From: an uncultured Lachnospiraceae bacterium
GTDB lineage: Bacteria; Bacillota; Clostridia; Lachnospirales; Lachnospiraceae
Direction: 5' to 3'
Length of the DNA: 64,000 bases
NCBI GenBank assembly: GCA_948470335.1
Contig: CAOKOL010000010.1
Span: 1 to 64,000 of the forward strand
Each line of letters begins with the position of its first letter. The stretch's first letter is position 1. The notes under the pieces are model-generated. The model searched no databases. It was given only the letters and a program-made list of their open reading frames with translations, and had not been told where the DNA came from. Positions 7,970 to 43,491 of this stretch are shown here, in pieces. Both the position numbers and the translations under genes were made by a program.

Positions 7970-8815
7970 TTACTCTCTCCCTTTCGGATTCAGGCAGTCA
8001 TTCAGCGCTGTTCCGAACAGATTAAAGCAGACCACGTATACCACGATGCACAGGCTTGGAATCAGCCACCACCACCAGGGATTGGGGCTGCTGATAACGG
8101 CGTTCTGGCTCCATGCCTGTTTCAAAATGGTTCCCCAGCTCCAGGTGGTAGGGTCCCCCAGGCCCAGAAAGCTTAAGCTGGCTTCCGTCAGAACGGCGGA
8201 GGCCATGACCAGGGTCATGTTTACCAGCACGGGGCCGGAAGCGTTAATCAGCACATGGCGGTACAGAATCCGTCCCGGCGGAATGCCCAGGCAGGTGGCC
8301 GCTTCAATATACTGCATCTCCCGGATTTTCAGCGTGCTGTTTTTCGTCACTCTGGCCAACTGGGGCCAGGAGAACACGCCCAGAATCAGCGCCACGTTCG
8401 TTATGGAAGTTCCCATAATGGCCGCTACGATAATCATCAGCGGCAGCATGGGCAGCGTCATGAAAATGTCAATCATGCCGTCGATGCACTCTCTGACCCA
8501 TCCGTTTGCATAGCCGCACACCAGCCCCAGCGGAATGCCGATCACCCCTGCAATCAGCATGGCCAGAATGGATACGTAAAGGGATGTCTGTGCCCCCCAG
8601 ACCAGCTCCGCAAAAATATCCAGCCCCAGATTATCGGTTCCCAGCCAGTGAAGGGCGCTGGGCGCCATCAGAATATCATTGGTATACCCCTCCGGTTTCG
8701 GAATGACCAGCGTTCCCGCCATCCCGATTACCACGATCAGCAGCACGCCGGCAAACCCGATCATGCCGTTTTTGTTTCGGACAAAATAATAGAGAAATCC
8801 TTTGCGTTTTTTCAT
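7970..8815 (-). CDS. Peptide ABC transporter permease, DppC/OppC type
   Basis: 281 residues with a cytoplasmic N-terminus (MKKRKGFLYYFVRNKNG), a first membrane span at about 18-38, and five further spans. The EAA loop GVFSWPQLARVTKNSTLKIREMQYIEAATCLG is split here as WPQLARVTKN and EAATCLGIPPGRILYRHVL; it contacts the ATPase subunits. The extracytoplasmic loop with LGTDNLGLDIFAELVWG is diagnostic for OppC/DppC. Pairs with the permease encoded just upstream (TAAGCCATG junction, 3-bp spacing). Confidence 0.93.
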   Translation of the reverse strand: MKKRKGFLYYFVRNKNGMIGFAGVLLIVVIGMAGTLVIPKPEGYTNDILMAPSALHWLGTDNLGLDIFAELVWGAQTSLYVSILAMLIAGVIGIPLGLVCGYANGWVRECIDGMIDIFMTLPMLPLMIIVAAIMGTSITNVALILGVFSWPQLARVTKNSTLKIREMQYIEAATCLGIPPGRILYRHVLINASGPVLVNMTLVMASAVLTEASLSFLGLGDPTTWSWGTILKQAWSQNAVISSPNPWWWWLIPSLCIVVYVVCFNLFGTALNDCLNPKGRE

Positions 8816-8818
8816 GGC

Positions 8819-9781
8819 TTATTCCCCCAGTTTAATTCTCGGATCGAGCCAGGCCACCACAATGTCGGTCAGAAAGCTCATCACCACTATCGCAACGGCC
8901 ATCAGCAGGAACGCACCTTGCAGGGAAGGATAATCCAGGGCGTTGACCGAGTCATACACCAGCCGCCCGACGCCGGGCCAGGAAAAAATTGTCTCCGTTA
9001 CCGTGGCGCCGCCTACCATAAATCCGATCTGCATGCCGATTACCGTCACCGTAGGAATCAGCGCATTTTTCAGCGCGTGAACCCTGAGCACCCGCCCCCT
9101 GCTGTTTCCCTTTGAATAGGCAGTGCGGATATAATCCTCCCGCAGCACGTCGATCATGCTGTTTCTTGTATACAGAACCGCATTTGCCAGGTTGGTGATG
9201 GACAGCGTAACCGCCGGCAGCACCAGATGTCTGGCCACATCCAGATAATAGGCCATCCCCTGGGCTTTTGGCGGCGTATAGGCGCCGCCGGTAGGGCTTA
9301 CCCCCAGCCGGAAGGAAAATATAAAGAGCAGCAAAAATGCCATAAACGGTATAAAAACCGAAATTCCCATCGTGACAATCACACTGATCACCCGGTCCGC
9401 CAGTCTGCCCTTATGGGCAGCGGCCAGAAGGCCTGTGGGAATGCCGATCAGTATCACGATCACCATGACCGCAGCCAGCAAAAGCAGCGTCCATGGCAGC
9501 TTCTGGGCCAGATATTCCGTCACCGGAATCCGCTTCGCAAAGCTTGTTCCCAGATTCCCGTGAAGCAGCTCCTTCATATACAATATATACTGGACAGAAA
9601 TCGGCTTGTCCAGCCCGTAAGCCTGAATCAGAGCCTGCTGGGCTTCCTCCGTCATCTGAGGGCTGATCATCAGCGCCACCGGATCGGAGGGCATGGCCCG
9701 GACGATAAAAAACACCAGTGTAACGGATACAAATATGGTAAGAACGCCCCGTCCAAGACGGCGCAGCAGAAAACGTAACAT
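8819..9781 (-). CDS. Peptide ABC transporter permease, DppB/OppB type
   Basis: 320 residues from ATG 9781 (GGAG, 8-base spacing); the longer open frame to 9922 lacks a start signal and encodes an Arg-rich, non-homologous tail. MLRFLLRRLGRGVLTIFVSVTLVFFIVRAMPSDP is the standard OppB start (span about 9-29, then the R-x-x-P-x-D-P motif). The EAA loop DYIRTAYSKGNSRGRVLRVHALKN and the C-terminal VETIFSWPGVG-like motif (here TETIFSWPGVGRLVYD) complete the family match. Forms the translocation pore with the OppC-type subunit. Confidence 0.93.
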   Translation of the reverse strand: MLRFLLRRLGRGVLTIFVSVTLVFFIVRAMPSDPVALMISPQMTEEAQQALIQAYGLDKPISVQYILYMKELLHGNLGTSFAKRIPVTEYLAQKLPWTLLLLAAVMVIVILIGIPTGLLAAAHKGRLADRVISVIVTMGISVFIPFMAFLLLFIFSFRLGVSPTGGAYTPPKAQGMAYYLDVARHLVLPAVTLSITNLANAVLYTRNSMIDVLREDYIRTAYSKGNSRGRVLRVHALKNALIPTVTVIGMQIGFMVGGATVTETIFSWPGVGRLVYDSVNALDYPSLQGAFLLMAVAIVVMSFLTDIVVAWLDPRIKLGE

Positions 9782-9966
9782 CGTATCATCTCCATTTACA
9801 GTGTGACAGCCGTCCTGCCTCCCACGGTTATCAGATTCCGGTCCCCGCCTTTTTCGGGGCACGGACACCGGGCCGTCGGATTTTAGAACGTCCGCCCTTA
9901 TTGTCTTGCAGCAATGCGGCAAAATCCCTGACCGCCCATATCCTTTTCCTGCCGGATATCATGGGC

Positions 9967-10950
9967 TCAGTGCGCCGGCTTCGCAAAATGACAGCGAATC
10001 CAGTGCCGCTCGCCGGTCTTTATCATCTGCGGTTCTTCCTGCCTGCATATCTCCTCAGCCTGGAAGCAGCGGTTACAGAACCTGCACCCTCTGGGCGGAT
10101 TCACAGGGCTTGGAATATCGCCTTCCAGCAGAATCCGCTGGCTTCTCCCCGCCGTGGACGGTTCGGGCACCGCAGATACCAGCGCCTGGGTGTAAGGGTG
10201 GGTATGTTCGCCGAACAATTGGTCATAGGGCGCAATCTCCATAATCTTTCCCAGATACATCACCAGAATCTGATCGCTGATATACCGGATCACAGCCAGA
10301 TCATGGCCGATAAACACATAGGTCAGATGAAACCGCTCCTTCAATTCATTGAACAGATTCAGAATCTGGGCCTGAACAGACACATCCAAGGCCGAAACCG
10401 ATTCGTCGCAGAACAGCAGCTTCGGATTCACCGACAGCGCCCGGACAATACCGATTCTCTGCCGCTGCCCGCCGGAAAACTCATAGGGAAAACGATCATA
10501 CACTTCCGGCCGCAGCCCCACCGTCTCCAGCAGATGACAGGCTTTTTCCCTGGCCTCGGCCCTGGTCTTTGCCTGCCCGTTTATCAGCATGGGCTCCACG
10601 ATGGCCTCGCCGATCTTCATCCGGGGATTCAGGCTGGCGTAGGGGTCCTGAAATACCATCTGCAGCTCGCTTCTCAGACGGCGTTTCCCTGCCGCCCCCA
10701 CCCGGAAGTTGGTAATATCCTCTCCCTGATAGAACACGGAGCCGGACGTCACCGGCGTCAGAGCCAGAATCGCCCTGGCAAGCGTGGATTTGCCGGATCC
10801 CGATTCCCCCACGATGCCCAGCGTCCCGCCCTGATACACCTCAAAGCTGACATCCTCAACCGCGTGGACAAAACGCCTTTCCTCCAATAATTTCTGTTTT
10901 TTAACCGGAAACAGCTTGGTCAAGCCTTCCACCTTTAAAATTGGTTCCAT
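9967..10950 (-). CDS. Peptide ABC transporter ATP-binding protein, OppF/DppF type
   Basis: 327 residues starting after AGGAGG. Walker A GESGSGKSTLAR (about 49-60), signature FSGGQRQRIGIVRAL, Walker B LLFCDESVSALDVSVQAQILNL in two short blocks (LLFCDESVSALD, then VQAQILNL), and the H-loop FIGHDL. The C-terminal region has the oligopeptide-family cysteine cluster RGCRFCNRCFQAEEIC that ligates an Fe-S cluster in some homologues. One of two ATPase subunits powering import. Confidence 0.93.
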   Translation of the reverse strand: MEPILKVEGLTKLFPVKKQKLLEERRFVHAVEDVSFEVYQGGTLGIVGESGSGKSTLARAILALTPVTSGSVFYQGEDITNFRVGAAGKRRLRSELQMVFQDPYASLNPRMKIGEAIVEPMLINGQAKTRAEAREKACHLLETVGLRPEVYDRFPYEFSGGQRQRIGIVRALSVNPKLLFCDESVSALDVSVQAQILNLFNELKERFHLTYVFIGHDLAVIRYISDQILVMYLGKIMEIAPYDQLFGEHTHPYTQALVSAVPEPSTAGRSQRILLEGDIPSPVNPPRGCRFCNRCFQAEEICRQEEPQMIKTGERHWIRCHFAKPAH

Positions 10951-15261: not shown

Positions 15262-15300
15262 AAAAATATGGCGGGGACTACATTCCCCGCCTAATTATTT
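15262..15300. terminator. Bidirectional terminator between ABC-F and retron RT genes
   Basis: GGCGGGGA (15270-15277) pairs with TCCCCGCC (15284-15291). T-rich DNA follows on the plus side and an A7 run precedes it (poly-T for the minus strand), so it can end transcription from both convergent genes. The RT stop codon TAG (15293-15291) overlaps the stem. Confidence 0.8.
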
Positions 15301-16337
15301 AACTTATTTTCTTTTTCCTTCTTCATAAGACATTTTATATTCGCCTTGTAATTCTTCAATTCTTTATCATTTGGATTAATAAACAGCGCATAATTGATTA
15401 ATCCATATAAGTGCTCCAGGTACTTACTGCGTTCTTCTTTTATATACTGCAAATGAGACTGTAAACCGTATTTATTAATATAATATAAATCTTTGCGAAT
15501 ATTTTTTCTGATACTTTTGGCCAACTGCGGTTTATCATTCACAACAATTCCTGTTACTTCCTGCTGCTGCCCCTGTTTACGTACTCTAGTTTTTTCTCCG
15601 TTGACCGATAATCTTAACTTCTCTAAACTTGTCTTAACAAATGCAATCACTTCTTTTTCATCAAAATCTCCGGAAAATGTCATGTCGTCTGCATATCTGG
15701 TAAAACGAATTTTAGATTTCTTACAAAACGCTCCTACTTTATAATCAAAATTTTTCAGCAATATATTAGACAATGCCGCACTGGTAGGCGCTCCCTGAGG
15801 TAAACTGCCCTCCAGACAACACAGATTTGTCAGCATCATACTGACCGCTTCATTATATCCAGCCTCAATAAATATCTGATACACCATCCAATCTGTTAAG
15901 TGATTATAAAAATCCTTTATATCCAGAGACAGTACCTTTTTTTGTCTTCTATGAAAACGAACATTGTCCTTGATTGATTTACCTCTTATATACGCTTTCG
16001 CATACGGACTTACCTCAAAACAATATAGTACATTTTCTAAAATCCATCGCTGTATTTCCTTCAGATTCGGAAGCGGTTCGGATATCTCTCTTAATCCTCC
16101 GTTCTTTTTGGGAATATGATAGCAATGATAAAAATTAGACGGCGCATTCGACACCGCATACACATAGACAGGATCATATCCCAGCAGTGCGCATAAATGT
16201 TTTTGACTAAACACAACCGGAAATTTCTGTTTCCACAGATTTTCTGCATATTCCAGCCAATATTCACAGTATTTTCTGCTTTTATTACTCTTCTGTGCAT
16301 TTTCAATAAACTTTGACCGGTATTCTATCCATTCCAT
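15291..16337 (-). CDS. Retron reverse transcriptase
   Basis: 348 residues, the usual retron RT length, with no maturase or endonuclease domain. Motifs: LSLDIKDFYNHL (first catalytic Asp, 139), LPQGAPTSAALSN (179-191), catalytic FTRYADDMTFSG (YADD 215-218), and VTGIVVN (261-267), the retron-type VTG motif used in recognising its own RNA. SNAPSNFYHCYHIPKKNGG (63-81) resembles the NAxxH region X of retrons. The start ATG lies 14 bases after the inverted repeat that closes the retron RNA, the normal arrangement. It should make an RNA-primed, branched msDNA from the adjacent RNA. AT-rich compared with neighbouring housekeeping genes. Confidence 0.93.
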   Translation of the reverse strand: MEWIEYRSKFIENAQKSNKSRKYCEYWLEYAENLWKQKFPVVFSQKHLCALLGYDPVYVYAVSNAPSNFYHCYHIPKKNGGLREISEPLPNLKEIQRWILENVLYCFEVSPYAKAYIRGKSIKDNVRFHRRQKKVLSLDIKDFYNHLTDWMVYQIFIEAGYNEAVSMMLTNLCCLEGSLPQGAPTSAALSNILLKNFDYKVGAFCKKSKIRFTRYADDMTFSGDFDEKEVIAFVKTSLEKLRLSVNGEKTRVRKQGQQQEVTGIVVNDKPQLAKSIRKNIRKDLYYINKYGLQSHLQYIKEERSKYLEHLYGLINYALFINPNDKELKNYKANIKCLMKKEKENKLNN

Positions 16338-16873: not shown

Positions 16874-17743
16874 CTAACTCCTGATTACTTTTACATTTCC
16901 TTTTCTTACAAAAGGTGCATATGTATTATTTTTATGTTCATACCAATATACCGGAAATGTATTATTCGGCGTTTTCATCATTGCGACCAGACTTTCCGTA
17001 TCCGCATATCCCAACTGCATTCCTCTGGGTGCATGCAAATATGTACTGATTTTTTTCATTATATCCATTTTTTGTTTTGCTTCTTCTTCCGGATATACAT
17101 CGGTGATCGCTTTTTTTCTTGTCACTGCAGCAAACACCGGGATTTTTTCTTTATTAATATTCTTAATTCCCTCCTCCTGTGCCACTAATGCAACAATATA
17201 GATTTTCTCATCCATATTACACAAGGCTTTCAAGTAATCCAGACATTCGATCGCTGTCTCACCGCTTCCTATAAAATCATCAATCAAAATCAATCCGCCA
17301 ATTCTATCCTCGTGTGCTTTTAGTATCGCGGGCGACTCGCAAATGCGAATTTGTCCTTCCTTAAATTCCGGGTATGTACGCATTAATATACTTTGACACA
17401 TATATAACATGAATATACTGCTTTTCAATTTTCCGAAATCTCTCTCCGGCAATAATGGACATATGTATATATTTTTACTTTTCTTCCACTTATCACTTTC
17501 AAATAACTTCTTTAATGCTGTCAGCAAATATTCCTCATACATACTGGATGTCACCCATAGAAATCCACCTGTAAGTTCAATCACCAGATCCCGTTCCTCA
17601 TCATTTTCCAATTCTGCCAGCCGACTGCAAAATCTATCAAATACCGAGTAATCACTGTTCTCCTGTAATGTCCATTCTTTGGATTTAAAAATCTCATATA
17701 ATTTTGTTACATAATTATCCGAAAGTACCTTCTTACCTAACAT
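16874..17743 (-). CDS. Retron effector candidate, phosphoribosyltransferase-like protein
   Basis: 289 residues from ATG 17743 (AAAGGG, 8-base spacing); a TTG-initiated extension to 17773 is possible. The PRPP-binding motif of type I phosphoribosyltransferases is clear: LILIDDFIGSGETA (151-164), with the two Asp before the Gly-rich loop. Near the C-terminus TPNNTFPVYWY recurs in PRTase-like proteins of defence loci (from memory). The N-terminal ~90 residues are helical and charged. First gene of the retron operon: PRTase, small protein, msr-msd, RT. By analogy with other tripartite retrons it would be the toxic effector held inactive by RT-msDNA; its nucleotide target is unknown. Confidence 0.82.
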   Translation of the reverse strand: MLGKKVLSDNYVTKLYEIFKSKEWTLQENSDYSVFDRFCSRLAELENDEERDLVIELTGGFLWVTSSMYEEYLLTALKKLFESDKWKKSKNIYICPLLPERDFGKLKSSIFMLYMCQSILMRTYPEFKEGQIRICESPAILKAHEDRIGGLILIDDFIGSGETAIECLDYLKALCNMDEKIYIVALVAQEEGIKNINKEKIPVFAAVTRKKAITDVYPEEEAKQKMDIMKKISTYLHAPRGMQLGYADTESLVAMMKTPNNTFPVYWYEHKNNTYAPFVRKGNVKVIRS

Positions 17744-17881
17744 CAAAACGGCCCTTTTCAGCAAAAATACCAAACACTTTATGTATCATGCCCACATATA
17801 CATATTTTCCCTTTTTTATATATTACCATATAACTGCCTATTATTCCATAGGAAAATTAAATTATTTTCCTTTTTATATAC

Positions 17882-21277: not shown

Positions 21278-22024
21278 TTACTCTTTATTTTTTAACTTAT
21301 GATAATATTTTATCATTCTTTTTATTACATTCTGGTATGATATATTATGTATATTCGCTTCCTCTACTATCTCATTAAATAAATCTATATCTTCGCTGCT
21401 GAAAACAAGATCCAGTTTCTTTTCTTTTACCCCCGCAATATGCTGATATTCTTCCGGATACGCATAATAACATGTTCTGCACATATCAATATTTTTCTCA
21501 GTCCAATTGGAACAATGCTCACAGGCCCATGATTTATCTCTATTGGCAGACGGTGATAAAAGCATAAAATAATCGGTATTCAGCATATCTCTTGGATCCC
21601 CGCCTATTTCGTAAGGAACCCGATGATCCGGTTGCAATAATCTTGCCGGATATTCTTCTCCATATAAATGACATTTAGCCCCATACCGGTCAATTAACGC
21701 ATTTTTCAATTTTTCCGTAATCTGAGTTCGCCCCGATACTTTTGACAATTGGTTCCTTTTCTTTGCCGTTTCCCAATCTCCAAATTTATAAGCAGCAATG
21801 GTTTTCCCGCTGCTGTCCTTAATTTTACATGTATCCAATGGGATTCCCAATTCTCTTACATCCCTGGCCGCTCTTGGAGCATGTTCATACCCGCCATTTT
21901 TTAAATCTTCTGTGCTGCAAAATCCCTTATTTAAAATAGTGTCTATTACAAATTTTGCTCTCTTATTGGTCACAGAATCTAAAACTTTTTTAAAATCCTC
22001 AGGTATATCCATCCTTTTCTCCAT
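21278..22024 (-). CDS. HNH endonuclease, probable type II restriction enzyme
   Basis: 248 residues from ATG 22024, which overlaps the methylase stop (TAATG). Residues 10-80 are helical with a helix-turn-helix look (STEDLKNGGYEHAPRAARDVRELG). The nuclease core is LLQPDHRVPYEIGGD (129-143), then LLSPSANRDKSW (155-166) with the Asn/His of an HNH fold. Around it lie two Cys pairs, CEHC (168-171) and CRTC (182-185), expected to hold zinc. Strict coupling to a DNA adenine methylase gene identifies it as the cognate restriction enzyme. Recognition sequence cannot be read. AT-rich relative to neighbours. Confidence 0.8.
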   Translation of the reverse strand: MEKRMDIPEDFKKVLDSVTNKRAKFVIDTILNKGFCSTEDLKNGGYEHAPRAARDVRELGIPLDTCKIKDSSGKTIAAYKFGDWETAKKRNQLSKVSGRTQITEKLKNALIDRYGAKCHLYGEEYPARLLQPDHRVPYEIGGDPRDMLNTDYFMLLSPSANRDKSWACEHCSNWTEKNIDMCRTCYYAYPEEYQHIAGVKEKKLDLVFSSEDIDLFNEIVEEANIHNISYQNVIKRMIKYYHKLKNKE

Positions 22025-22926
22025 TATCCGAAACAAAGCTCCAATTGTACACATTCATCATGTTTACTTCTTAAATTTTCACTTGTATACAAAGACTCGT
22101 ATGTTATTTCTTTTTTTCCATTAAGCGTTGCCTGCGCTGATAATCCGGCATTAATGTATATATGATTCAAATGAAGTTCCTCAGGAAGACTCTTTCCTAT
22201 TATTTTATCCCCTGTCCTGCCATCATAACTTACAATAAAATCTATACCGCGATTATTTAGCTTTACAAGTTCCGCTACAAATTCTTCAAAGTCCACGCCT
22301 TGTATATAACGATTATCTCTTGGATTAACTCTGTTTGAAGTACCCTGATACGGAGGATCCATATAAACCAGATCTCCCGGCTTTGTCAATGCTAAAATCT
22401 CTTTATAATCTTTACTTGTAAAATATGTTTTTCCTCTCAGCAATCTTGATATTTTAAAAGCATTATCGGATATGATTTGAGGTCTTGTTCCATATCTTCT
22501 TTTATCACAGGATTGATTGAACTCGCCGCGGACATTATAACGAACGGCGCCTTTAACCACTCTTGCCAGCAAAAACAGCATTCTGGCAGAATCTTTCATT
22601 CCGCAATTAAATTCTTCTCTGACTTTGTAAAAATAATCTATATGATTCAGATCAGTTTGAAACTGTCCTTCCCATATATCCGAATACCCGCTTGCTAATC
22701 TTTCAGGTGAATTCACACATTCTTCCATCATTTTTATCAGCGGTTCATTTATATCATTAACCCAAAACTTATTACACTTGTTTTCGGCTGCCGCCAAAAT
22801 TGATACAGCGCACGTTCCTGAAAATGGTTCTACTAACCTGTCAATCTTATCCGGAAAGAATTTTATAATCTCAGGAGCAATCACTCTTTTGCTTCCCTGA
22901 TATTGAACCAAATGCGGCACTTTCAT
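22024..22926 (-). CDS. DNA adenine methylase (N6-A, Dam/MboIIA-type), restriction-modification
   Basis: 300 residues. SAM-binding motif VEPFSGTCAVSIL (32-44), catalytic DPPYQG (190-195) and the N-terminal QYQGSKR (8-14) typical of Dam-like class-alpha N6-adenine methyltransferases. The order motif I before DPPY supports that class. It is the first gene of a two-gene operon with the HNH endonuclease, so protection is made before cutting. Preceded by GAGGAG and its own promoter. Confidence 0.88.
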   Translation of the reverse strand: MKVPHLVQYQGSKRVIAPEIIKFFPDKIDRLVEPFSGTCAVSILAAAENKCNKFWVNDINEPLIKMMEECVNSPERLASGYSDIWEGQFQTDLNHIDYFYKVREEFNCGMKDSARMLFLLARVVKGAVRYNVRGEFNQSCDKRRYGTRPQIISDNAFKISRLLRGKTYFTSKDYKEILALTKPGDLVYMDPPYQGTSNRVNPRDNRYIQGVDFEEFVAELVKLNNRGIDFIVSYDGRTGDKIIGKSLPEELHLNHIYINAGLSAQATLNGKKEITYESLYTSENLRSKHDECVQLELCFG

Positions 22927-33321: not shown

Positions 33322-33558
33322 TTATTCAAACAATTGTTCATACGTGATACCCAGCACCTTTTTGATGGCCTTCAACTGTTTTACCTGTACATGCTGGATC
33401 CCCCGCTCTATTTTCACGAGACTTTCCCTGGTAATCGGAACGCCTTGAAGATCCAGCAGACGAACAAGTTCCGTCTGCCCTATCCCCATCGCCAACCGCG
33501 CCTCTCTGATATTTCTTCCAAGATTTCCTTTTTCGTCCTGTTTAATCTTCTGTTCCAA
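33322..33558 (-). CDS. XRE-family DNA-binding protein
   Basis: 78 residues; the Cro/C1-type helix-turn-helix spans about residues 13-70 (LGRNIREARLAMGIGQTEL, then ITRESLVKIERGIQHV, and a final helix to ITYEQLFE). No effector domain. Stands between the deacetylase gene and the AT-rich cassette, same strand as both. A 16-bp perfect palindrome lies just upstream. Confidence 0.85.
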   Translation of the reverse strand: MEQKIKQDEKGNLGRNIREARLAMGIGQTELVRLLDLQGVPITRESLVKIERGIQHVQVKQLKAIKKVLGITYEQLFE

Positions 33559-33979
33559 TTTTCATCCCTCTTCGAACCATTCAGAGTTCATCTATCATTT
33601 TATTAATAAAATAAAAAAATATGGAACTATTTCTGGTCCTTTTTACAAATTTCTTCAAAATGTTACCATAAATTTGGATTTTCGCGCTTATATAATAACG
33701 TTTGAGAGAAGGAAATATTTCAAAAAAGAGGAAAAAAGTTGGAAAAATACTTTAATGATGCCTAAAAAAGATAGTCTATACAGGTATTATTAGCAATATT
33801 TTTATATTTATGCAAATTTTGATAGTCAACATCAATAGTAAAGCAACAATTGCCAAACACTGTCGATCTTTCTTACCAAAAGCCACTTAATAGATAAATA
33901 CTACCTATCATAAACACCCCATCCAAAAGAGTCCAACCACTTGATATTATTAGTAGTCTTTTTATTCAACATACAGATA
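33559..33979. other. AT-rich intergenic stretch with a 16-bp palindrome
   Basis: No gene. ATTTTATTAATAAAAT at 33597-33612 is a perfect palindrome 38 bp upstream of the XRE start and could be its operator. The remainder is strongly AT-rich with no terminator or RNA structure I can support. Confidence 0.45.
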
Positions 33980-36208
33980 CTAGTGCTCAATCATATAAAC
34001 TGCTGATACTCTAGTTCCTTTTTCGTTTAAAGCTACAACCGCTAGTTTTGATTTAATCCTTTTATTAGCAAGTTGTTTTGCTGGAATAGTCTGGTTTTCA
34101 CCTTTATCTGGATTATAACTATGAACTGGAACATATTCATTAATACTAGCTATAAAATGCAATTGATCTTTTTGATTTAAAATGAGTCCTCCTTCATTAA
34201 AAATCAACTGACAATCCACATAAATGCCATCTACTGGCCCGCCTGGTTGATTATCAAAAAGAATCTCTTGTTCGCTTCCCGAAATTAAATTTCCCTTTGT
34301 CGGTACTATTTTATCCTGAATATAAATTCCCTGTACATAGGAATCTACATCTTGAACTGGCCATTGATACAATAAACCATTATTAAAAACTTTATAATAA
34401 TATATTCCATCTCTATTTTCATAATCCCCTGTCAGCACCATATATTGATTCATCGTTTTCAGTATACTCCATTCCGTTTGGCTGTTTTCACTCACCTCAG
34501 AAGGCAGAACAATATTATCCGTTGGAGTAATATTACTCTTTTTCCGTTGCGGGTTTCCTTCAATAACGATTCCAAATACAAAACCTGACAAATCAAACGA
34601 TATTGCAAGAAACAAAGCAAATACAGATAATCCCCAATAAGGGCTTTGCAGGTAAATAAGTCCTTGATATATTGGGCTATGATTTGATATATAGCGGCGT
34701 ATCATATCGTCCAGCTCTCGACTGGATTTATTGCGATTATAACTATTTAAAATATTTATTTGAAATTCTGACAATAGACTATTTTCTGTATCCTTTACCA
34801 CATCAGACTCACTATATACAGGTACAGAACCAATCTGTGCTTTCAAAATTTCTAGTCTTTCTCTCCATTCTCTCTTCCACTGCTCATTATTATTTACTAT
34901 GCCCGTTGAATCTGATACGTCAACCAAATTTATTTCACGCAATTCAGCTACTAAATTATCCAAATTTAATTCAATATCTTTTATCTCTGAATAATCCATC
35001 AGATTTTGTATTAACCGATTCATTTGCATCAACAAACTTGTGTAAGAATTTTTTTTTCCATCCGACAACATTCCTTCACCATCATCAGAAGCCAAACGCG
35101 ATGCACTCCGCAAATTATCAAATATTTCTGTTGCAATTTCCAATAGTTTTTTCTCATCCGGATCTTGCTGAAAAAATTCTGTTTGCATTTGCATCAGCTC
35201 ACTTCTAATGGAAATGGCACTGGTAGAACTAGTCAGCCCCAATAGACTTTCATAAAACGAAAGCCGTAACAGCGCATTATCCAACTGAGCATCCTCTTCC
35301 TGCAAAACCGTTTGTCGCCGTGTTGCATCATTAATAAGCCTCGTATAATTATTGATCGACGCAGTCAATTCATCGGTGTCCGTGCCACTCTGGGCACTAT
35401 TAATACGATTTGTGAACTCCTCAATCTGAATATTATAATTTGTAATATTAGCATTGATAGTATTTAAATTCTGCTGAATTGTCTCCCGCCTGTTTGATAT
35501 ATTATTTTTTGCATCTGCAACCGCTGTTACAGCAAGATCTCGATCCTCCTGTGAAGAATTTTCTTTTAAAGCGCCTTCTATTGCATCTATTACATTAGCC
35601 ATATAAGCTGCAGCCGTTGTTTCACCCGACAAATAATTGATACGTTCTGCATTCCAATCCATTTCAAAATCTATATTAGAATCAGAAAGTTTTCCAGCCT
35701 GCTCATCAAGAAGTAAAATCTTTTCCCCTACACTTTCCTCTAAATAAATACGATATGAACTTATATAATCTTGCACATCATATAATTCTGAGCGATAAGT
35801 TTGCTGCACTAGCAATTCGCTCTCCGCTGCCCAGGATTCTTTATGTATAACATCGACAATATAAACATAACTAAACCACGAGGAGCAAAAAATTATCACT
35901 GCTGTCAAAAAAAGCGCCAAAAAACACAATAGCAATTTAAAAAAAAGGCTCCAGGTTCTTTTCCAAATGCCTCTCAAATAACCCGGCAGATTCATACTTA
36001 AAGCCAATAAAATACCTTGTATTGCAGCAGAAGCCGCATAAGCAATCACACTATCCTCTGTAAATATATAATTCCCCATACCATTGGCTGTCGTAAAAAA
36101 AGACACAAAAGCCAAAAATATAACCCCAACTCGCAGAAGGTTTATGTTTCCATTTATCACATCTGTTTTTATTGTTTTCTGGAATGAATGATCCCTGTTT
36201 GACATCAT
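33980..36208 (-). CDS. Large membrane protein with long coiled-coil ectodomain, function unknown
   Basis: 742 residues from ATG 36208 (AGGAG, 8-base spacing); the preceding in-frame ATG at 36226 would include the ribosome binding site. Membrane spans at about 24-42, 53-72, 88-110 and 523-548. The ~410 residues between spans 3 and 4 are almost wholly helical, rich in Asn, Gln, Glu and Ser, with heptad-like stretches (for example 240-275 and 395-425). They are likely extracytoplasmic. The C-terminal ~190 residues form a soluble, beta-rich domain (TGDYENRDGIYYYKVFNNG). No enzyme motif. Last gene of a three-gene AT-rich operon; no family recognised. Confidence 0.8.
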   Translation of the reverse strand: MMSNRDHSFQKTIKTDVINGNINLLRVGVIFLAFVSFFTTANGMGNYIFTEDSVIAYAASAAIQGILLALSMNLPGYLRGIWKRTWSLFFKLLLCFLALFLTAVIIFCSSWFSYVYIVDVIHKESWAAESELLVQQTYRSELYDVQDYISSYRIYLEESVGEKILLLDEQAGKLSDSNIDFEMDWNAERINYLSGETTAAAYMANVIDAIEGALKENSSQEDRDLAVTAVADAKNNISNRRETIQQNLNTINANITNYNIQIEEFTNRINSAQSGTDTDELTASINNYTRLINDATRRQTVLQEEDAQLDNALLRLSFYESLLGLTSSTSAISIRSELMQMQTEFFQQDPDEKKLLEIATEIFDNLRSASRLASDDGEGMLSDGKKNSYTSLLMQMNRLIQNLMDYSEIKDIELNLDNLVAELREINLVDVSDSTGIVNNNEQWKREWRERLEILKAQIGSVPVYSESDVVKDTENSLLSEFQINILNSYNRNKSSRELDDMIRRYISNHSPIYQGLIYLQSPYWGLSVFALFLAISFDLSGFVFGIVIEGNPQRKKSNITPTDNIVLPSEVSENSQTEWSILKTMNQYMVLTGDYENRDGIYYYKVFNNGLLYQWPVQDVDSYVQGIYIQDKIVPTKGNLISGSEQEILFDNQPGGPVDGIYVDCQLIFNEGGLILNQKDQLHFIASINEYVPVHSYNPDKGENQTIPAKQLANKRIKSKLAVVALNEKGTRVSAVYMIEH

Positions 36209-36222
36209 GATGGTTTCTCCTT

Positions 36223-37428
36223 TCATTTTTTTGTTATTTTCTCATCAAAACCCCAAAAAACAGTTTCATATTCTTTTTTATCATTTATTTGCTTTTTTAT
36301 TACATGTATCATTTCATTTCTTATTTGATCATGGATTTTTCCTAACATATCATCATTTGCATTTCCAATTACATTATTCAATGCTCCATAAATAGAATTC
36401 AGCATTTCCAGTAACACTATTGAAGCCTTCCCTACTAAAGAAACAAACAATAATTTCGCCTCTTGACGGATAATCTTCTCTCTCATATCCATTAATAAAC
36501 GAATGATTTCCAAAGTTAAAATAGCCAATGCAACTATAAAAATAACAGCAGCAAATGATTTTAAGAGTGCCGTTATTGTTCCTAATGGATCTCCCCACAA
36601 ATCCGAATCTTCTTTTGTAATAGTCCATAACAGAGACACCCCAACGGCCAAAAGTCCTATTGGAGCAGAATATTCATCTAAAAGCTCCTTCTCTCCTTTC
36701 TCTGCAAAAGTTCTATTAACGATTGAGTAAAGAATTTTAATAGTCGCAAATCCAACTCCCAGTACAATAATAAATATCAACACATATGATGATAATTGTT
36801 TATAGAAACTTTCTCCTGCATTAGACGAATTAAAATACATTGAAATTTCATTTACACCAGTTTTCCAAACTTGAGTCACTCTCGAACTTGATTTATCCCC
36901 CATAAGAAGCGGCAAAATAATAAATATTGCTACAATTCCCCATGTTATAACCATCATAAAAATAGGAGTTTTCATAATATTAACAAGTTCTTCACTCTTA
37001 TTTTTTATCGCATCTGCTATCTGGGTGTAACCACTACCGCTCTTTTTAGCACGAATAATTGCTTTAAAGCCGTAAGATATAAAAAGAACAACTACAAAAA
37101 GAAGCATTGCAGAAGACGCAACAATGATTCCTAACATTAGTAATTTTATTGTAATTTTCGAAACATTTATAAAAAAAAGAGTTGTATTCTCGTTTCCATA
37201 CTTATTAACAAACGGCTTTAGTAAAACCGTCTGATTACGGATTACAAATATGACACATAATATAATAAAAGCAATAATAGAAACAAAATTAAGCCTTTTT
37301 TGTCTTTTATCCACTGGAGCCAACCAACGTAAAACGCCAGACACAACCAATATACAACATAAAATCAGTGCCCCCAGCCAAATACAAAACATCAGAACAT
37401 TTATAATTTCTTCCATATTATATCCCAT
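36223..37428 (-). CDS. Multi-pass membrane protein, function unknown
   Basis: 401 residues (ATG 37428; ATG 37416 also possible, neither with a strong ribosome binding site). About eight hydrophobic spans, the first at 10-30, others near 48-65, 90-125, 155-175, 210-235, 260-275 and 285-310. C-terminus is a soluble helical tail (~60 residues: NDDMLGKIHDQIRNEMIHVI...). The stop (TGA 36225) lies within the ribosome binding site region of the downstream gene, so the pair is tightly linked. Family not recognised. Confidence 0.78.
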   Translation of the reverse strand: MGYNMEEIINVLMFCIWLGALILCCILVVSGVLRWLAPVDKRQKRLNFVSIIAFIILCVIFVIRNQTVLLKPFVNKYGNENTTLFFINVSKITIKLLMLGIIVASSAMLLFVVVLFISYGFKAIIRAKKSGSGYTQIADAIKNKSEELVNIMKTPIFMMVITWGIVAIFIILPLLMGDKSSSRVTQVWKTGVNEISMYFNSSNAGESFYKQLSSYVLIFIIVLGVGFATIKILYSIVNRTFAEKGEKELLDEYSAPIGLLAVGVSLLWTITKEDSDLWGDPLGTITALLKSFAAVIFIVALAILTLEIIRLLMDMREKIIRQEAKLLFVSLVGKASIVLLEMLNSIYGALNNVIGNANDDMLGKIHDQIRNEMIHVIKKQINDKKEYETVFWGFDEKITKK

Positions 37429-37454
37429 CCATTTTTATATTTATGATTGTAATT

Positions 37455-38555
37455 TCATAGTGTGAACAATTGCAACATGCTATTGGTAACTTCCAAGGCA
37501 ACTCCAAGAAGATTCAACCAGGTAGTATAATCAGCAACATCCTGTGAATTAATGATATGGTTTCCCTCAGGAGAAAAAAATGTCACAATACAGATTAACA
37601 TTAAAGGTACTACAATAAAAGCAATCAATGTAATAGACAAATCCAGTAAATTTATTGTATTTTTTGCTGTCATATTATTTTGATGTACCCTACTGTTGCT
37701 CTTTGTAATAGATCTTTTTACAATGTACCACAACAAACCTACTAAAACTATCAACATTATCATAATGATGCCTATTATACCTAATAGGATTAAAAGCGCA
37801 TAAGATAGTGATCCCAAAATAGCAGCAGCTAACATAGCAAGCAATATTTTTTTTTCATCTATATTTTTAATAGCCTCTTTACCCTTTTTACAAATTAAAG
37901 GAAAAAGATATAACAAAAAGCCAATAATAATACAAACAGTCCACAGCCTCACACTTCCCCATAAAATATCCGCACTGAAAATAACTGCAAATGTGCCTTT
38001 ATTAAAGATCTGATAAATAAGATAGACTACCCAAAAACCAAATCCCCCCATAAAAACAAGGATTAGACCTTTATCACAATTTCCTATTTCCGCAGTAAAT
38101 CCAGATAATCCATTTCCCAATGGCTTAATTGTTTTTCCTCCCCACATCAGAAAACCCTGAACTACTGTCAACAACTGTTCCGCAAGCCTTGTCAAAAATA
38201 ATATTTGTACTATAGCACAAAAAGTCCAGCCAACATGCCACCCCTTTAGATCAGTCCAAATCATTTCTAATTGAATCGTATGTTCAAACACATTTATATT
38301 CATGAAGAAAGCAATTACCGAAATTGCCACATTTCCGAGAACACTACCCAAATTTCTGCTATGGTCCCTTTTGGAAGGAAAACCCAACCAGAAAAAACAT
38401 ATCATGGCAACCATCAGCATTACAGTATTACTAATATTTTCGAAATTCTTCCATTGTTCGAAAGGCACATTTCCGAAAATATTTATTCCTTCAACTGTCA
38501 AAAACACCAGCATCGATAGAAGCGCTGGTATACCATTTTTCTTTTTTTGTTTCAT
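37455..38555 (-). CDS. Multi-pass membrane protein, function unknown
   Basis: 366 residues from ATG 38555 (AGGAAG, about 10-base spacing). Begins with Lys-rich MKQKKKNG and then spans near 9-28, 45-62, 75-92, 115-135, 175-195, 210-235, 250-285 and 310-335; a short soluble loop follows span 7 (KSNSRVHQNNMTAKN). First gene of the AT-rich operon. No enzymatic or transporter motif seen. Confidence 0.78.
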   Translation of the reverse strand: MKQKKKNGIPALLSMLVFLTVEGINIFGNVPFEQWKNFENISNTVMLMVAMICFFWLGFPSKRDHSRNLGSVLGNVAISVIAFFMNINVFEHTIQLEMIWTDLKGWHVGWTFCAIVQILFLTRLAEQLLTVVQGFLMWGGKTIKPLGNGLSGFTAEIGNCDKGLILVFMGGFGFWVVYLIYQIFNKGTFAVIFSADILWGSVRLWTVCIIIGFLLYLFPLICKKGKEAIKNIDEKKILLAMLAAAILGSLSYALLILLGIIGIIMIMLIVLVGLLWYIVKRSITKSNSRVHQNNMTAKNTINLLDLSITLIAFIVVPLMLICIVTFFSPEGNHIINSQDVADYTTWLNLLGVALEVTNSMLQLFTL

Positions 38556-39470
38556 AATATATTCTCTTCCTATAATATCACTATACATAAAAACAAAAAT
38601 CTCCAAAAATATATATACTTTTCAATTTACTCAATCCAATAATTTAAGATCAACCCAAATCATTTAGTTAGTTCGTTTTCTTAATTAAATGCTCACCTTC
38701 TTAATATATTTTTCCTGACCGTAAATTCTCTCTTTTTTCTATATTTTTTATTTTATCAATAACTTAGAATATAATGGGACCCCTATGGGTCCTTCGACAA
38801 CAAAATAATCCTATATTCTACAAATCAAAAAATTTTCTGCATTTTAGCAATTATAATAACGTTATCTTAAGCAAAAAGCAAATTTCATTTTAAAACCAGT
38901 ATGTAAACACTATAAATCATAGTATAATAATCAAAAAATTTTTGTATTATCAATAAATTTGAGCTATAACTCATCCTAATAATAGGCATAATAAACTTAT
39001 TTAAAATACATTTATACAAGATAAATATAGACGATAATCTATAATCTTCTATTTGACAAGAAAGAAAACCAGATGTTAAATAAATTAACGGATTGTTTTT
39101 GGCATTGACATTATCCAAACTAGTTATTATAGATTTTCTGGTTCAAAATATGCCTGTTAAAATAGACATCAGATATATCATCAATACTGTGCTTTGAATT
39201 AGATTTCATATACTAAAAGCAATATTAATTAAATCAAAAAATGATAAAAAATGACATAGATTATTTGAGAAATCACGGAACAGAATCATATAAAATATAT
39301 ACAATCTACAATACATAAAAAATGAAATGTAAAATTTTAAAATATACAGAATATCAGCTTCACATAATATTCACATATCAATTATAACAGAAAAAGTAGT
39401 TAAAAAAATCAGATTATCGCTCACTGTTTAACCAATACCCTACTCGCTTATTCAAATATAGACCATTTAT
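38556..39470. other. AT-rich intergenic region (about 0.9 kb) upstream of the membrane cassette
   Basis: No convincing gene. It must contain the promoter of the three-gene operon, but no -35/-10 pair stands out. At 38770-38792 TATAAT is followed directly by the hairpin GGACCC/GGGTCC, which could be the start of a small plus-strand transcript. A 77-codon frame at 38885-39118 (minus) has no ribosome binding site and low-complexity composition and is not called. Confidence 0.5.
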
Positions 39471-39522
39471 AAAAAAACATCGGACACCCCTGCTCTCACT
39501 TCACCTGCAGGAATGTCCGACA
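39471..39522 (-). terminator. Terminator of flagellin gene 1
   Basis: Minus strand: ATCGGACA-type outer arms (GTCGGACA/TGTCCGAT) with inner CCTGC/GCAGG, followed by GTTTTTTT. Strong intrinsic terminator about 95 bp after the flagellin stop. Confidence 0.8.
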
Positions 39523-39617: not shown

Positions 39618-40913
39618 TTACTGCAGCAGCCGCAGCGTTACTTCGGGAAGGGCGTTTGCCTGGGCGAGCATGGACTGAGCGGCCTGGAGAACGATATTGT
39701 TCTTCGTGTAATTGGTAATCTCACTGGCCATATCGGTGTCTCTGATCCGGCTTTCGGCCGCAATCAGGTTTTCTTTATTGATATTTACGCTGTTGATCGC
39801 GTGCTCCAGTGCATTTTCCGCTGCGCCGTACGCGCCGCGGATCTGGGAAACGCGGTTAATCATTCTGTCTATTTTATCAATCGACTCGCTGGCACCATCC
39901 TGATTGGAAATATCAAGTTTATCCAGTCCCAGTGCCTTTTTAGAAAGATAAAACTTGGGGATACTCATCGTATCCGAAGAGTTCGGGCCTATCTGAAACA
40001 CAATCGGACCGTTACCGGGGGAAAGAGCAGCTTTCGATACAGAAGCAGCAGCGCCCATCGCGCCTGCTACTGCCGCAGGATCTGCCGCGCCCGCTGCGGT
40101 ACCAGTCATACCCGCCGCCGGAGCTGCCGCGGCACGAATCGCTGCTGCTGCCGCATCAGCCGGAGTTGCAGTCCCATCAGCAGCACCGCCTGCCGCGGAA
40201 CCGGCAGCCGCCATTATAAATTCCGCTTTTGCCTCCGCGGCTTTCTCGCCTGCACCGGGAAGCTGAGGGGTGTCTACGATCTTCTCCTCCTTACCCTTCC
40301 CGCTGCCAAAACCGGCAGCCACGGTCTGAAATTCTTTTTTTGCATCCACCACCTGTCCCGTACTCGTATAAGTGACATCCCGCGGAGCAGCCTTTGTACT
40401 TGTCTGGGTACCGGGCAGATTGGCAGAAGTCGTCGTCGCCGCAGTCTTTGTACCCGGAGTTGCATTTATTATGATAGCGCCGTCTTCCGGTCCTTCGTCT
40501 TGAAACAGCCCCACATAATTAAACCTGGTCGCTTTGGAAATACGATCAATTTCCTCGCTGATCCGGTCCGCTTCCTCCTGCATAAGCTCCCTGTGCTCCT
40601 CATCCGTATAAACGCCGTTGGCCGACTGTATCGCCAGCCCGTTCAACTGAATCAGCATCGCATGGATCTCCTGCATGGCGCCCTCGCCAGTTCTCAGCAG
40701 ACCAACGCCGTCCCTGGCATTCAACTCTGCCTGATCCATACGGGCAATTGCGGAGCGCATCTGCTCGGAGATCGCAAGACCTGCCGCATCGTCGCCGGAC
40801 CGGTTAATCCGGAAACCAGATGCAAGCTTCTCCAGGTTCTTCGCCATCTTCGATTCATTTATACTCAATGCCACCTGAGCATTCAGCGCCGAAATATTAC
40901 TTTTAATCCGCAC
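39618..40913 (-). CDS. Flagellin with Ala-rich variable region
   Basis: 431 residues. GTG 40913 is chosen as start: GGAGG lies 8 bases upstream and translation then begins (V/M)RIKSNISALNAQ, as in typical flagellins; the in-frame ATG at 40928 overlaps that GGAGG. N-domain (SKMAKNLEKLASGFRINRSGDDAAGLAISEQMR) and C-domain (ESRIRDTDMASEITNYTKNN, LQAAQSMLAQAN) are conserved and quoted in short. The centre (about 150-330) is variable, with a stretch of some 80 residues rich in Ala and Gly. Secreted by the flagellar export system and built into the filament. Preceded by a sigma-28-type promoter. Confidence 0.93.
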   Translation of the reverse strand: MRIKSNISALNAQVALSINESKMAKNLEKLASGFRINRSGDDAAGLAISEQMRSAIARMDQAELNARDGVGLLRTGEGAMQEIHAMLIQLNGLAIQSANGVYTDEEHRELMQEEADRISEEIDRISKATRFNYVGLFQDEGPEDGAIIINATPGTKTAATTTSANLPGTQTSTKAAPRDVTYTSTGQVVDAKKEFQTVAAGFGSGKGKEEKIVDTPQLPGAGEKAAEAKAEFIMAAAGSAAGGAADGTATPADAAAAAIRAAAAPAAGMTGTAAGAADPAAVAGAMGAAASVSKAALSPGNGPIVFQIGPNSSDTMSIPKFYLSKKALGLDKLDISNQDGASESIDKIDRMINRVSQIRGAYGAAENALEHAINSVNINKENLIAAESRIRDTDMASEITNYTKNNIVLQAAQSMLAQANALPEVTLRLLQ

Positions 40914-41018
40914 AATAAAATCCTCCATTTATCCGCGCCGCGGCCTGCCCCGCGGTGCCAGGAACATGGATATACATCGCGTCATTCCTGTCTCTGTTCA
41001 TTTATGCCTCTATATAAT

Positions 41019-41045
41019 ATATCGTCACTTTTTACAAATAAATTA
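41019..41045 (-). promoter_or_regulatory. Sigma-28-type promoter of flagellin gene 1
   Basis: Minus strand TAAT (41045-41042), 15 bp, GACGATAT (41026-41019); one mismatch from the -10 consensus GCCGATAT. Leader about 100 bases. Confidence 0.7.
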
Positions 41046-41121
41046 CCGTGACGCTGTAAAAAGCCGGCAGAAACAGGATATTCTGAAATTTGCGGACCGT
41101 TTTCACTTTTCCCTATCGCCC

Positions 41122-42444
41122 TTATACATCTTCTGGGTTCAACACGGCAAGCTCCTCCTCCGTACAATACTGCCGCAGTGCTTTTAGAACACCCTTGCCA
41201 TCTAATTTGGCATACACGGCTCCGCGCAGAAGCAGGATCCGGTCGCTGATATCATTCAGATTATACAGTTTTCCAAGGAAGCCCACCACAGCCTGTGGGT
41301 CCTCATTTTTAAAACAGCGGATCAGCAATTCCAAAGTGCCGATATGGGTCTTATCCACTTTCAGCAGTCCCACACAGCAGTTAACGCATTTCTCCATCTT
41401 ATTATTTTGATAATAACAGAGTGCCAGCGACCTCCAGGTTTCCGGAAGGTCTCTGGTCAGCAGTAAATTAAAGGTTTTTGTCCCATACTGCTCCATCATG
41501 TTAATGGCTCGTTCCAAATGAAATTCACCTTTGGGAAAATCTTCTTTTTGTGCATAGAATCGCCCAATCAGATACTCCAGATCATAGAAACCGGTGAAAT
41601 ACTGGGCAGACTGCGCATAAATGTCCATGAATTCCCGTTCGGCTTCCGCATTCGTAAGCGCTTTCATGTACAGCATCACCATCAGCATGGCGATCGTATA
41701 GATATCCCGTTCCGCCCGATGGCCTGACCGGAAAATATAAGGCAGAGCCTTCCGGTACCATACTTCTGCCTCAGCGGTCCCTTCATCAGTTCCCAGCGCT
41801 CGATAAGAATCCCCAAGATATCCCATCACATCCGGATCCTCAGGCCTTGCTTCTGACTCCTTTAATAAGATCCCTATATTACGCCTGGCTTTCTTATCAC
41901 CCACGCTGCTCATATAGCCGGTATGGTAGATCGAAAGATCGGAAGCATCCAGTACATGCCTGTCGATAGCCGCTCCATTATAAGCCAATTGTTCATGGAT
42001 CGGCTTAATATAGCGGATCGCCGGGTTATTTTTAAAGATCCGGTACTGCACGGCCGCCATGTCCATCTTCATATCGTCTTCCAACTGAATCCAAAGGGTA
42101 CGGAGAATCTCAAGGCCTAACTTTCCCGCCTTTTTAATCGCTTTAGGAAGCTTTTCCACATCCTCCGGCAGCATATACTCATCGGCATCCAGAAAAGCAA
42201 TCCAGTTCCCCGATGCCTGCCGGATCGCAAAATTTTTTGCGGCGGCAAAATCATCAATCCAGTCAAAATGGTAGATCTTCGCCCCCATCCGCTCCGCGAT
42301 CTCTACGGTCCGGTCCGTACTGCCCGTATCCACCACGATCTGCTCCCACATAATCTCTTTCCCCCAGGAAAGGGCCTGTTCAATATTTTTCTCCTCGTTT
42401 TTTACGATCATACACTGCGACAGCCTGATCTTTCCTGCTCCCAT
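41122..42444 (-). CDS. Family 2 glycosyltransferase with TPR-like C-terminus
   Basis: 440 residues. GT-A domain at the N-terminus: LSQCMIVKNEEKNIEQAL (8-25), IVVDTGSTDRTVEIAERMG (36-54), and the metal-binding D-x-D in FLDADEYML (84-92). From about 210 onward the chain is helical with TPR-like repeats (GTDEGTAEAEVWYRKAL, KGEFHLERAINMM). No membrane span. Sandwiched between the two flagellin genes on the same strand, it is a good candidate for cytoplasmic O-glycosylation of flagellin before export; this function is inferred from position. Confidence 0.85.
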   Translation of the reverse strand: MGAGKIRLSQCMIVKNEEKNIEQALSWGKEIMWEQIVVDTGSTDRTVEIAERMGAKIYHFDWIDDFAAAKNFAIRQASGNWIAFLDADEYMLPEDVEKLPKAIKKAGKLGLEILRTLWIQLEDDMKMDMAAVQYRIFKNNPAIRYIKPIHEQLAYNGAAIDRHVLDASDLSIYHTGYMSSVGDKKARRNIGILLKESEARPEDPDVMGYLGDSYRALGTDEGTAEAEVWYRKALPYIFRSGHRAERDIYTIAMLMVMLYMKALTNAEAEREFMDIYAQSAQYFTGFYDLEYLIGRFYAQKEDFPKGEFHLERAINMMEQYGTKTFNLLLTRDLPETWRSLALCYYQNNKMEKCVNCCVGLLKVDKTHIGTLELLIRCFKNEDPQAVVGFLGKLYNLNDISDRILLLRGAVYAKLDGKGVLKALRQYCTEEELAVLNPEDV

Positions 42445-42470
42445 CCCATCTCTCCTCTCTGATAACCGGG

Positions 42471-42510
42471 AAAGGCCATTTTGCGGCTGTTACCCCTCAA
42501 AATGGCCTTT
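42471..42510 (-). terminator. Hairpin after flagellin gene 2
   Basis: 13-bp perfect stem AAAGGCCATTTTG/CAAAATGGCCTTT, 58 bp after the flagellin stop and 26 bp before the glycosyltransferase start. No clean U-tract, so it may act as a partial terminator that lowers glycosyltransferase expression relative to flagellin. Confidence 0.6.
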
Positions 42511-42567
42511 ACTTATCCTATATAGGAATATACAAATTTAATAGCGATTTAAACTTCACCTGATTGA

Positions 42568-43491
42568 TTACTGCAGCATACTCAGAACGCCCTGCGGAGT
42601 TGCATTAGCCTGACTCAGCATGGACTGAGCAGCCTGGAGCAGGATGTTGTTCTTCGTGTACTTGGTAATCTCATCAGCCATATCGGTATCACGGATACGG
42701 GACTCGGCAGCAGTGATGTTCTCAGAGCTTACCTGCAAGCTGGCAATGGTATGCTCCAGACGGTTCTGAGCGGCACCGAGCTGAGCACGGTAGCTGGATA
42801 CCATATTGATTGCACAGTTAACAACGTCAATTGCGTCATTTGCTGATGCAACAGACATTACAGCCTTGTCTTTAACAATATCTGCAATAGATGTAGTCGG
42901 CGTACTACCAACCGAAGGAGTCTTGTAAGGATTTCCGCCGGTAACACCGCTTGGTCCGCCAGCACCCAGCATACTAGAGGTCATAGCGCCACAATTAACG
43001 GAAATCGTTTCTGCTGATGACGGTCCAATCTGGAATGTCATTGTTTTTCCGCTCATAGCCTTACTCAGTGGCTTGATACCATTGAAATCAGTCTGATTAC
43101 CGATACGGTCGATCTCCTCTTTCAGTCTCTCAAGCTCTACCTGGATATTCTCTCTGGCGGTAGTAGAACCGTTAGCCGATGTTGCGTAAGTTCCGTTAGC
43201 AGCCTGAGTATACAGGGTAACCATACGGTTCAGCATGGAGTGAGTCTCAGCCAGCGCACCTTCTGCTGTCTGGATCATACCGATAGCATCTTTTGCGTTG
43301 GTCACGGCCTGGTTAATACCAGCGATCTGGGAACGCATCTGCTCGGAAATAGCAAGACCGGCAGCGTTATCGCCTGCACGGTTGATCTTATAACCGGAAG
43401 ACAGTTTCTCAAGGTTTTTGCTTAACGCGTCGTTGTTGATGCCTAAGTTTCTGTAAGAGTTAATCGCTGATATGTTATGTTGAATAATCAT
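42568..43491 (-). CDS. Flagellin, compact form
   Basis: 307 residues after GGAGGG. N-domain MIIQHNISAINSYRNLG, LEKLSSGYKINRAGDNAAG and C-domain ESRIRDTDMADEITKYTKNN, LLQAAQSMLSQAN are typical; the central region is short (about 140-215), so only a small outer domain is present. Two cysteines, in SVNCGAM and VVNCAIN, are unusual for an exported filament protein. Likely the main filament subunit, since its export core is closest to consensus and its own sigma-28-type promoter precedes it; dominance over the other flagellin is not provable here. Confidence 0.95.
   Translation of the reverse strand: MIIQHNISAINSYRNLGINNDALSKNLEKLSSGYKINRAGDNAAGLAISEQMRSQIAGINQAVTNAKDAIGMIQTAEGALAETHSMLNRMVTLYTQAANGTYATSANGSTTARENIQVELERLKEEIDRIGNQTDFNGIKPLSKAMSGKTMTFQIGPSSAETISVNCGAMTSSMLGAGGPSGVTGGNPYKTPSVGSTPTTSIADIVKDKAVMSVASANDAIDVVNCAINMVSSYRAQLGAAQNRLEHTIASLQVSSENITAAESRIRDTDMADEITKYTKNNILLQAAQSMLSQANATPQGVLSMLQ

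Follow-up and report, generated by a model that had tools for sequence, protein, structure and literature searches.

What is encoded by three consecutive AT-rich membrane-protein genes, without recognised relatives, in the genome of an uncultured, gut-type Lachnospiraceae bacterium, and what might they do for the cell? The genes, here called A, B and C, occupy 4.6 kb (38555-33980, minus strand) of the window, the 64,000-nucleotide stretch of DNA that was analysed (G000:C10:1-64000). The initial annotation described the locus as an uncharacterised membrane-gene cassette. This description holds up well: the proteins belong to no described family, the operon is conserved, its distribution is rare and patchy, its composition is foreign, and it is missing from the matching flank of a sister genome. 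A-B-C is a real, conserved, rare and patchily distributed membrane-gene unit of undescribed families. We tentatively propose, with a probability of about 0.4, that it was acquired horizontally as an accessory operon and that its products form one envelope complex defending against phages or other mobile DNA.

Gene organisation, composition and acquisition

The features of the cassette and its immediate flanks are as follows.

38606-39500, no strand: gene-free AT-rich region upstream of A, about 0.9 kb, presumed to hold the operon promoter
37455-38555, minus strand: gene A, polytopic membrane protein of 366 residues with 8-9 predicted spans
36223-37428, minus strand: gene B, polytopic membrane protein of at most 401 residues with 8-9 predicted spans
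33980-36208, minus strand: gene C, 742 residues, with three N-terminal spans, a helical ectodomain, one further span and a β-rich C-terminus predicted to be cytosolic
34481-35887, minus strand: C ectodomain, fourth span and inner linker, approximately residues 114-582 of the 748-residue open reading frame (ORF); long antiparallel helices, span at 531-556
33983-34480, minus strand: β-rich C-terminal domain of C, the last 166 residues; low-confidence models; missing in the relative from genome G667
33322-33558, minus strand: XRE-type HTH gene with an HTH_3 match, approximately 420 bp downstream of the cassette, GC 46%

All three genes are intact and consecutive on the minus strand, and none carries a disabling mutation. 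The ORFs reproduce the three-gene operon read from the sequence at first, and hydropathy assigns 8-9 spans to each of A and B, for which about eight had been claimed, and 3 + 1 spans to C. The longest ORF of gene A opens with a TTG at 38606 (383 residues); the likely start is the ATG at 38555, which is preceded by GGAAGAG and corresponds to the residue at which the orthologue at locus L006, described below, begins. For gene B, starts at 37428 and 37416 are both possible, and the protein has a conserved DEY loop and a conserved E-x-I-R-L motif. Gene C likely begins at the ATG at 36208, with AAAGGAG upstream, which yields the 742 residues originally reported, whereas the longer ORF from 36226 encodes 748. 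Four spans and an external region of about 410 residues had also been proposed for C; approximately 415 residues of net negative charge lie between spans 3 and 4. Because orthologous A-B-C and B-C operons exist elsewhere, A, B and C cannot be chance ORFs.

The cassette differs sharply in composition from its surroundings, as the initial annotation stated. The GC contents of A, B and C are 33%, 31% and 35%, with GC3 values of 24-31%, compared with 51-56% GC and 56-65% GC3 for rarA, the deacetylase gene and the adjacent flagellin 1 gene, and a backbone of about 52% GC. The gene-free AT-rich stretches said to bracket the cassette are seen on both sides, the downstream one being the approximately 420 bp between C and the XRE gene that hold no convincing gene. 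Promoter and terminator matches around the cassette are no more frequent than in shuffled sequence, and its ends show no tRNA, Rfam family or element-scale flanking repeat. The XRE gene exists where it was placed (33558-33322, HTH_3), but it does not belong to the conserved core: its GC content of 46% and the lack of a homologue beside either the L006 or the L005 locus mark it as a neighbour.

The same-genus sister genome G001 keeps the rarA/deacetylase/DUF5716-5717 block and valS, and has different genes on the other side of the deacetylase gene, which constitutes a synteny break. The cassette is missing from the corresponding stretches of G001, as are the restriction-modification (RM) pair and the retron described below. 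The adjacent flagellin has no match in either same-genus genome, both of which are incomplete assemblies. Presence in relatives at normal composition, named at the outset as an argument against a distinct cassette, was not found: the corresponding flank of G001 lacks it, and after removal of a false positive C occurs in 2 of 397 same-family genomes. Its AT-rich composition, rarity and the synteny break at which the G001 comparison ends together support horizontal acquisition, and the cassette is probably mobile as well as horizontally acquired.

Relatives and predicted architecture

A search of 84,980 genomes identified a second complete A-B-C operon, with the genes in the same order, in another uncultured Lachnospiraceae genome (L006). 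Identities are 35% for A (P0009, L006:6629-7723), 37% for B (P0008) and 54% for C (P0007). In a third genome, a Clostridium-labelled MAG, the search identified a B-C pair (L007, corresponding to locus L005 of genome G021), composed of a C orthologue with 31% identity (P0006) and a distant B (P0005; 20% identity, hhalign E 3.8e-5). The first span of the G021 copy of C is out of frame with the rest of the protein (L005:8631-8969 versus 8713-10731, split near 8790), reflecting either a frameshift or an assembly error. Retention of the A-B-C order in L006 and of B-C in L005 indicates that the genes work as a unit, and the conserved operon makes it likely that the three proteins form one physical complex.

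The wider order contributes one further genome with a distant form of C. In this genome, G667, the C protein has 22% identity (P0010) and is without the β-rich domain. The locus (L014, G667:C402, 1460-4702) is a three-gene membrane arrangement in which two other membrane genes precede the C-like gene; the middle gene has no detectable similarity to A or B. No other genome in the class and phylum samples has a convincing match to C, and the plasmid, phage and viral-contig collections contain no C homologue at the sensitivity used. Because the contig scan relied on short peptide patterns, distant members will have escaped it. Several apparent matches to C were discarded. The third of the listed same-family hits, in G104, is a TadC-like ORF, the match in G578 lies antisense to a histidine-kinase-like ORF, and that in G1001 contains five stops; the remaining order-level matches (E ~1e-4) cover the coiled coil alone.

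That no family could be recognised for these proteins was the initial impression, and it agrees with the database searches. Comparison of A, B and C with Pfam, NCBIfam, PADLOC, PHROGs and PDB sequences gave nothing convincing, only low-scoring coiled-coil or chance matches. Homology to a described transporter or secretion family, which had been expected to tell against a novel cassette, was not found. In PADLOC-DB 2.0.0 no defence model is matched beyond coiled-coil noise, the best matches of C (E ~1e-3 to 1e-2) being limited to the coiled coil. Swi5, DNA gyrase B, a phage scaffold, PbeC, DndD, PtuB, CT398 and keratins were rejected as homologues of C; their sub-cut-off matches involve only the ectodomain coiled coil and are inconsistent among orthologues. 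All three cassette proteins represent orphan families, and deeper profiles could yet reveal a known one.

The AlphaFold2 model of C was built from four sequences and has a moderate mean pLDDT of 65 with a clear outline. It consists of three helices (residues 15-127), long helices (131-513), the fourth span (531-556) and a series of strands (595-747). Confidence is mostly 73-93 across approximately residues 200-330. The C-terminal domain folded alone is modelled poorly (pLDDT 51), and the matches of this isolated domain were dropped (E >= 0.13). The inter-span charges fit an N-in topology, which would place the helical part outside the cell and the β-rich part inside. Identity between the two closest C proteins is highest in the N-terminal spans (71%), compared with 42-59% in the ectodomain and 56% in the β domain, so the membrane part of C is the most tightly constrained.

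Genomic neighbourhoods and candidate functions

The neighbourhood of L006 provides the most direct association with defence. Here C ends at 11541 and a D12 methyltransferase gene begins at 11619, 77 bp on and on the same strand, followed by a ParB-like gene. According to PADLOC, this pair (L006:11619-14016) matches PD-Lambda-5_B (3.5e-114) and PD-Lambda-5_A (2.6e-91). PD-Lambda-5 is a two-gene anti-phage system established by experiment, and its description includes no genes like A-B-C (PMC9519451), so the association in L006 may reflect shared insertion hotspots only. The cassette and the pair are on the same strand, directly adjacent and equally rare in this bacterial family, but PD-Lambda-5 is not homologous to any of the three cassette proteins and is described without membrane components; only the neighbouring L006 genes match its A and B models, and A, B and C match neither. 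PD-Lambda-5_A is itself rare, occurring in 1 of 290 same-family genomes, and the genome that contains the window gave no match to it at the threshold applied. Since both units are rare, chance pairing of widespread genes is an improbable explanation for their adjacency, of which there is a single case. In the one other sampled genome with PD-Lambda-5_A, G122 (L039), the pair has no A-B-C beside it. Integrase- and primase-like genes lie upstream of the G122 pair and an AAA-type ATPase gene directly follows it, which suggests that PD-Lambda-5-like pairs in Lachnospiraceae have a variable third component. Among the genes tested in the L005 neighbourhood there is no PADLOC match.

Defence genes are also found elsewhere in the window.

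15291-16337, minus strand: type III-A retron reverse transcriptase (RT; PADLOC RT_III-A, 5.4e-149)
16874-17773, minus strand: type III-A retron phosphoribosyltransferase (PRTase_III-A, 2.2e-87)
21278-22054, minus strand: type II RM REase_II-like protein (6.4e-45)
22024-22926, minus strand: type II RM methyltransferase, D12 adenine, part of the RM pair

The retron, called from its RT and PRTase genes, adjoins valS. The RM genes overlap by approximately 30 bp and lie between valS and the gene for a PEP-utilising enzyme. Both modules have a GC content of 35-36%, which makes the cassette the third AT-rich accessory module within approximately 25 kb. The retron and the RM pair extend the picture given by the initial annotation, which was framed around the cassette.

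A surface function can be read from the same loci. Both relatives with a readable neighbourhood are housed in surface-polysaccharide clusters: L006 is surrounded by genes for a bacterial sugar transferase, glycosyltransferases and an ABC-2 exporter, and L005 by those for a Wzy_C O-antigen-ligase-like protein, an SLH protein and NTP-transferases. The window copy adjoins two flagellin genes and a GT2 protein. The two flagellin genes lie on either side of the GT2/TPR protein (39618-43491, minus strand). On this basis, A and B might move or assemble a glycan or protein as part of a surface polymer or envelope complex, with C as the organiser, as polysaccharide co-polymerases do. C resembles the co-polymerases of Wzx-Wzy systems in its long-helix ectodomain between spans, and the neighbourhoods of the two relatives are in keeping with such a role, but C differs in having three N-terminal spans and a β-rich C-terminal domain, and Pfam finds no Wzx, Wzy, Wzz/PCP or exporter domain in A, B or C. 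Moreover, the copy in the window lies outside any polysaccharide cluster, and its composition is far from that of the neighbouring flagellar genes. Polysaccharide clusters are variable, gather foreign genes and serve as general insertion hotspots, L006 having taken in PD-Lambda-5 at the same place; at so few loci a surface role is therefore inseparable from hotspot sharing. We consider this explanation, the main rival to a defence role, somewhat unlikely.

Alternatively, C could be a sensor whose ectodomain binds a ligand and whose β domain signals to A and B, which would transport or gate. The ectodomain is modelled as a long antiparallel helical bundle, and its VIA-align matches include McpS, other chemoreceptor ligand domains and TTYH ectodomains (Z 8.8 to 11.8), but unrelated helical proteins reach the same scores. 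TTYH ectodomains rank first, with Z values up to 11.8 that fall inside the tool's stated helical-bundle background. The superpositions on TTYH/prominin-like proteins (Z 11.8, 7.0 Å over 196 residues; Z 11.2, 3.1 Å over 147 residues) come from the C model with its mean pLDDT of 65 and involve a eukaryotic family with about 10-12% identity and another span arrangement. Foldseek returns nothing for the C model at E <= 0.001 in the PDB; its viral matches to C, which are coiled-coil proteins with TM-scores near 0.1, were rejected. According to Pfam, the three proteins carry neither a HAMP domain nor a kinase or signalling domain, and they match no transporter family. A sensor or transporter appears quite improbable to us. 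Of the roles offered by the initial annotation, defence and cell-surface interaction each retain some support from gene neighbourhoods, whereas signalling is left with a weak, non-specific fold resemblance. Least probable is a module for interbacterial competition or antimicrobial resistance, acting in export or immunity. The combination of small polytopic proteins and an external domain in a rare, foreign cassette would suit such a role, but no gene for a toxin, bacteriocin, protease or ABC ATPase was recognised in the cassette or adjoining it at the loci examined.

A candidate envelope defence complex

Conserved linkage, rarity, foreign composition and the defence genes nearby in both the window and L006 make defence the most likely role of the cassette. 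Set against this, only a single locus places the cassette directly next to a defence system, and the polysaccharide clusters of L005 and L006 and the flagellins of the window fit a surface role equally well. Zorya (ZorAB) and Kiwa (KwaA) include polytopic membrane proteins with long helical parts, for which action at the envelope has been proposed. The cassette proteins share these general features, but A, B and C have no PADLOC match to the Zorya or Kiwa models, and the tail of ZorA is cytosolic whereas the helical part of C is predicted to be external.

Architecture and analogy suggest how C might report a trigger to its partners. A and B would constitute a membrane core, which C would join through its three N-terminal spans, the most conserved part of the protein. 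The helical ectodomain of C may extend into the cell wall or beyond it, and the β-rich cytosolic domain may monitor conditions inside the cell. When a phage perturbs either side, the A/B core would switch, and infection would be halted by a pore that depolarises the membrane or by a block on DNA entry. A more far-reaching version, which we regard as rather doubtful, is that the cassette encodes an immune complex of a new kind, acting at the membrane, complete in itself and sharing no component with described defence systems, in which the external helical antenna and cytosolic β domain of one protein gate a two-protein core. Accessory defence cassettes are known as a broad kind; here every component is an orphan.

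Should the cassette act in defence, current catalogues of defence genes would gain an envelope-acting system made of parts they do not yet list, from bacteria in which defence against phages has received less study. Should it be a surface complex instead, the three proteins would represent an envelope machine that has gone unrecognised and that travels from species to species.
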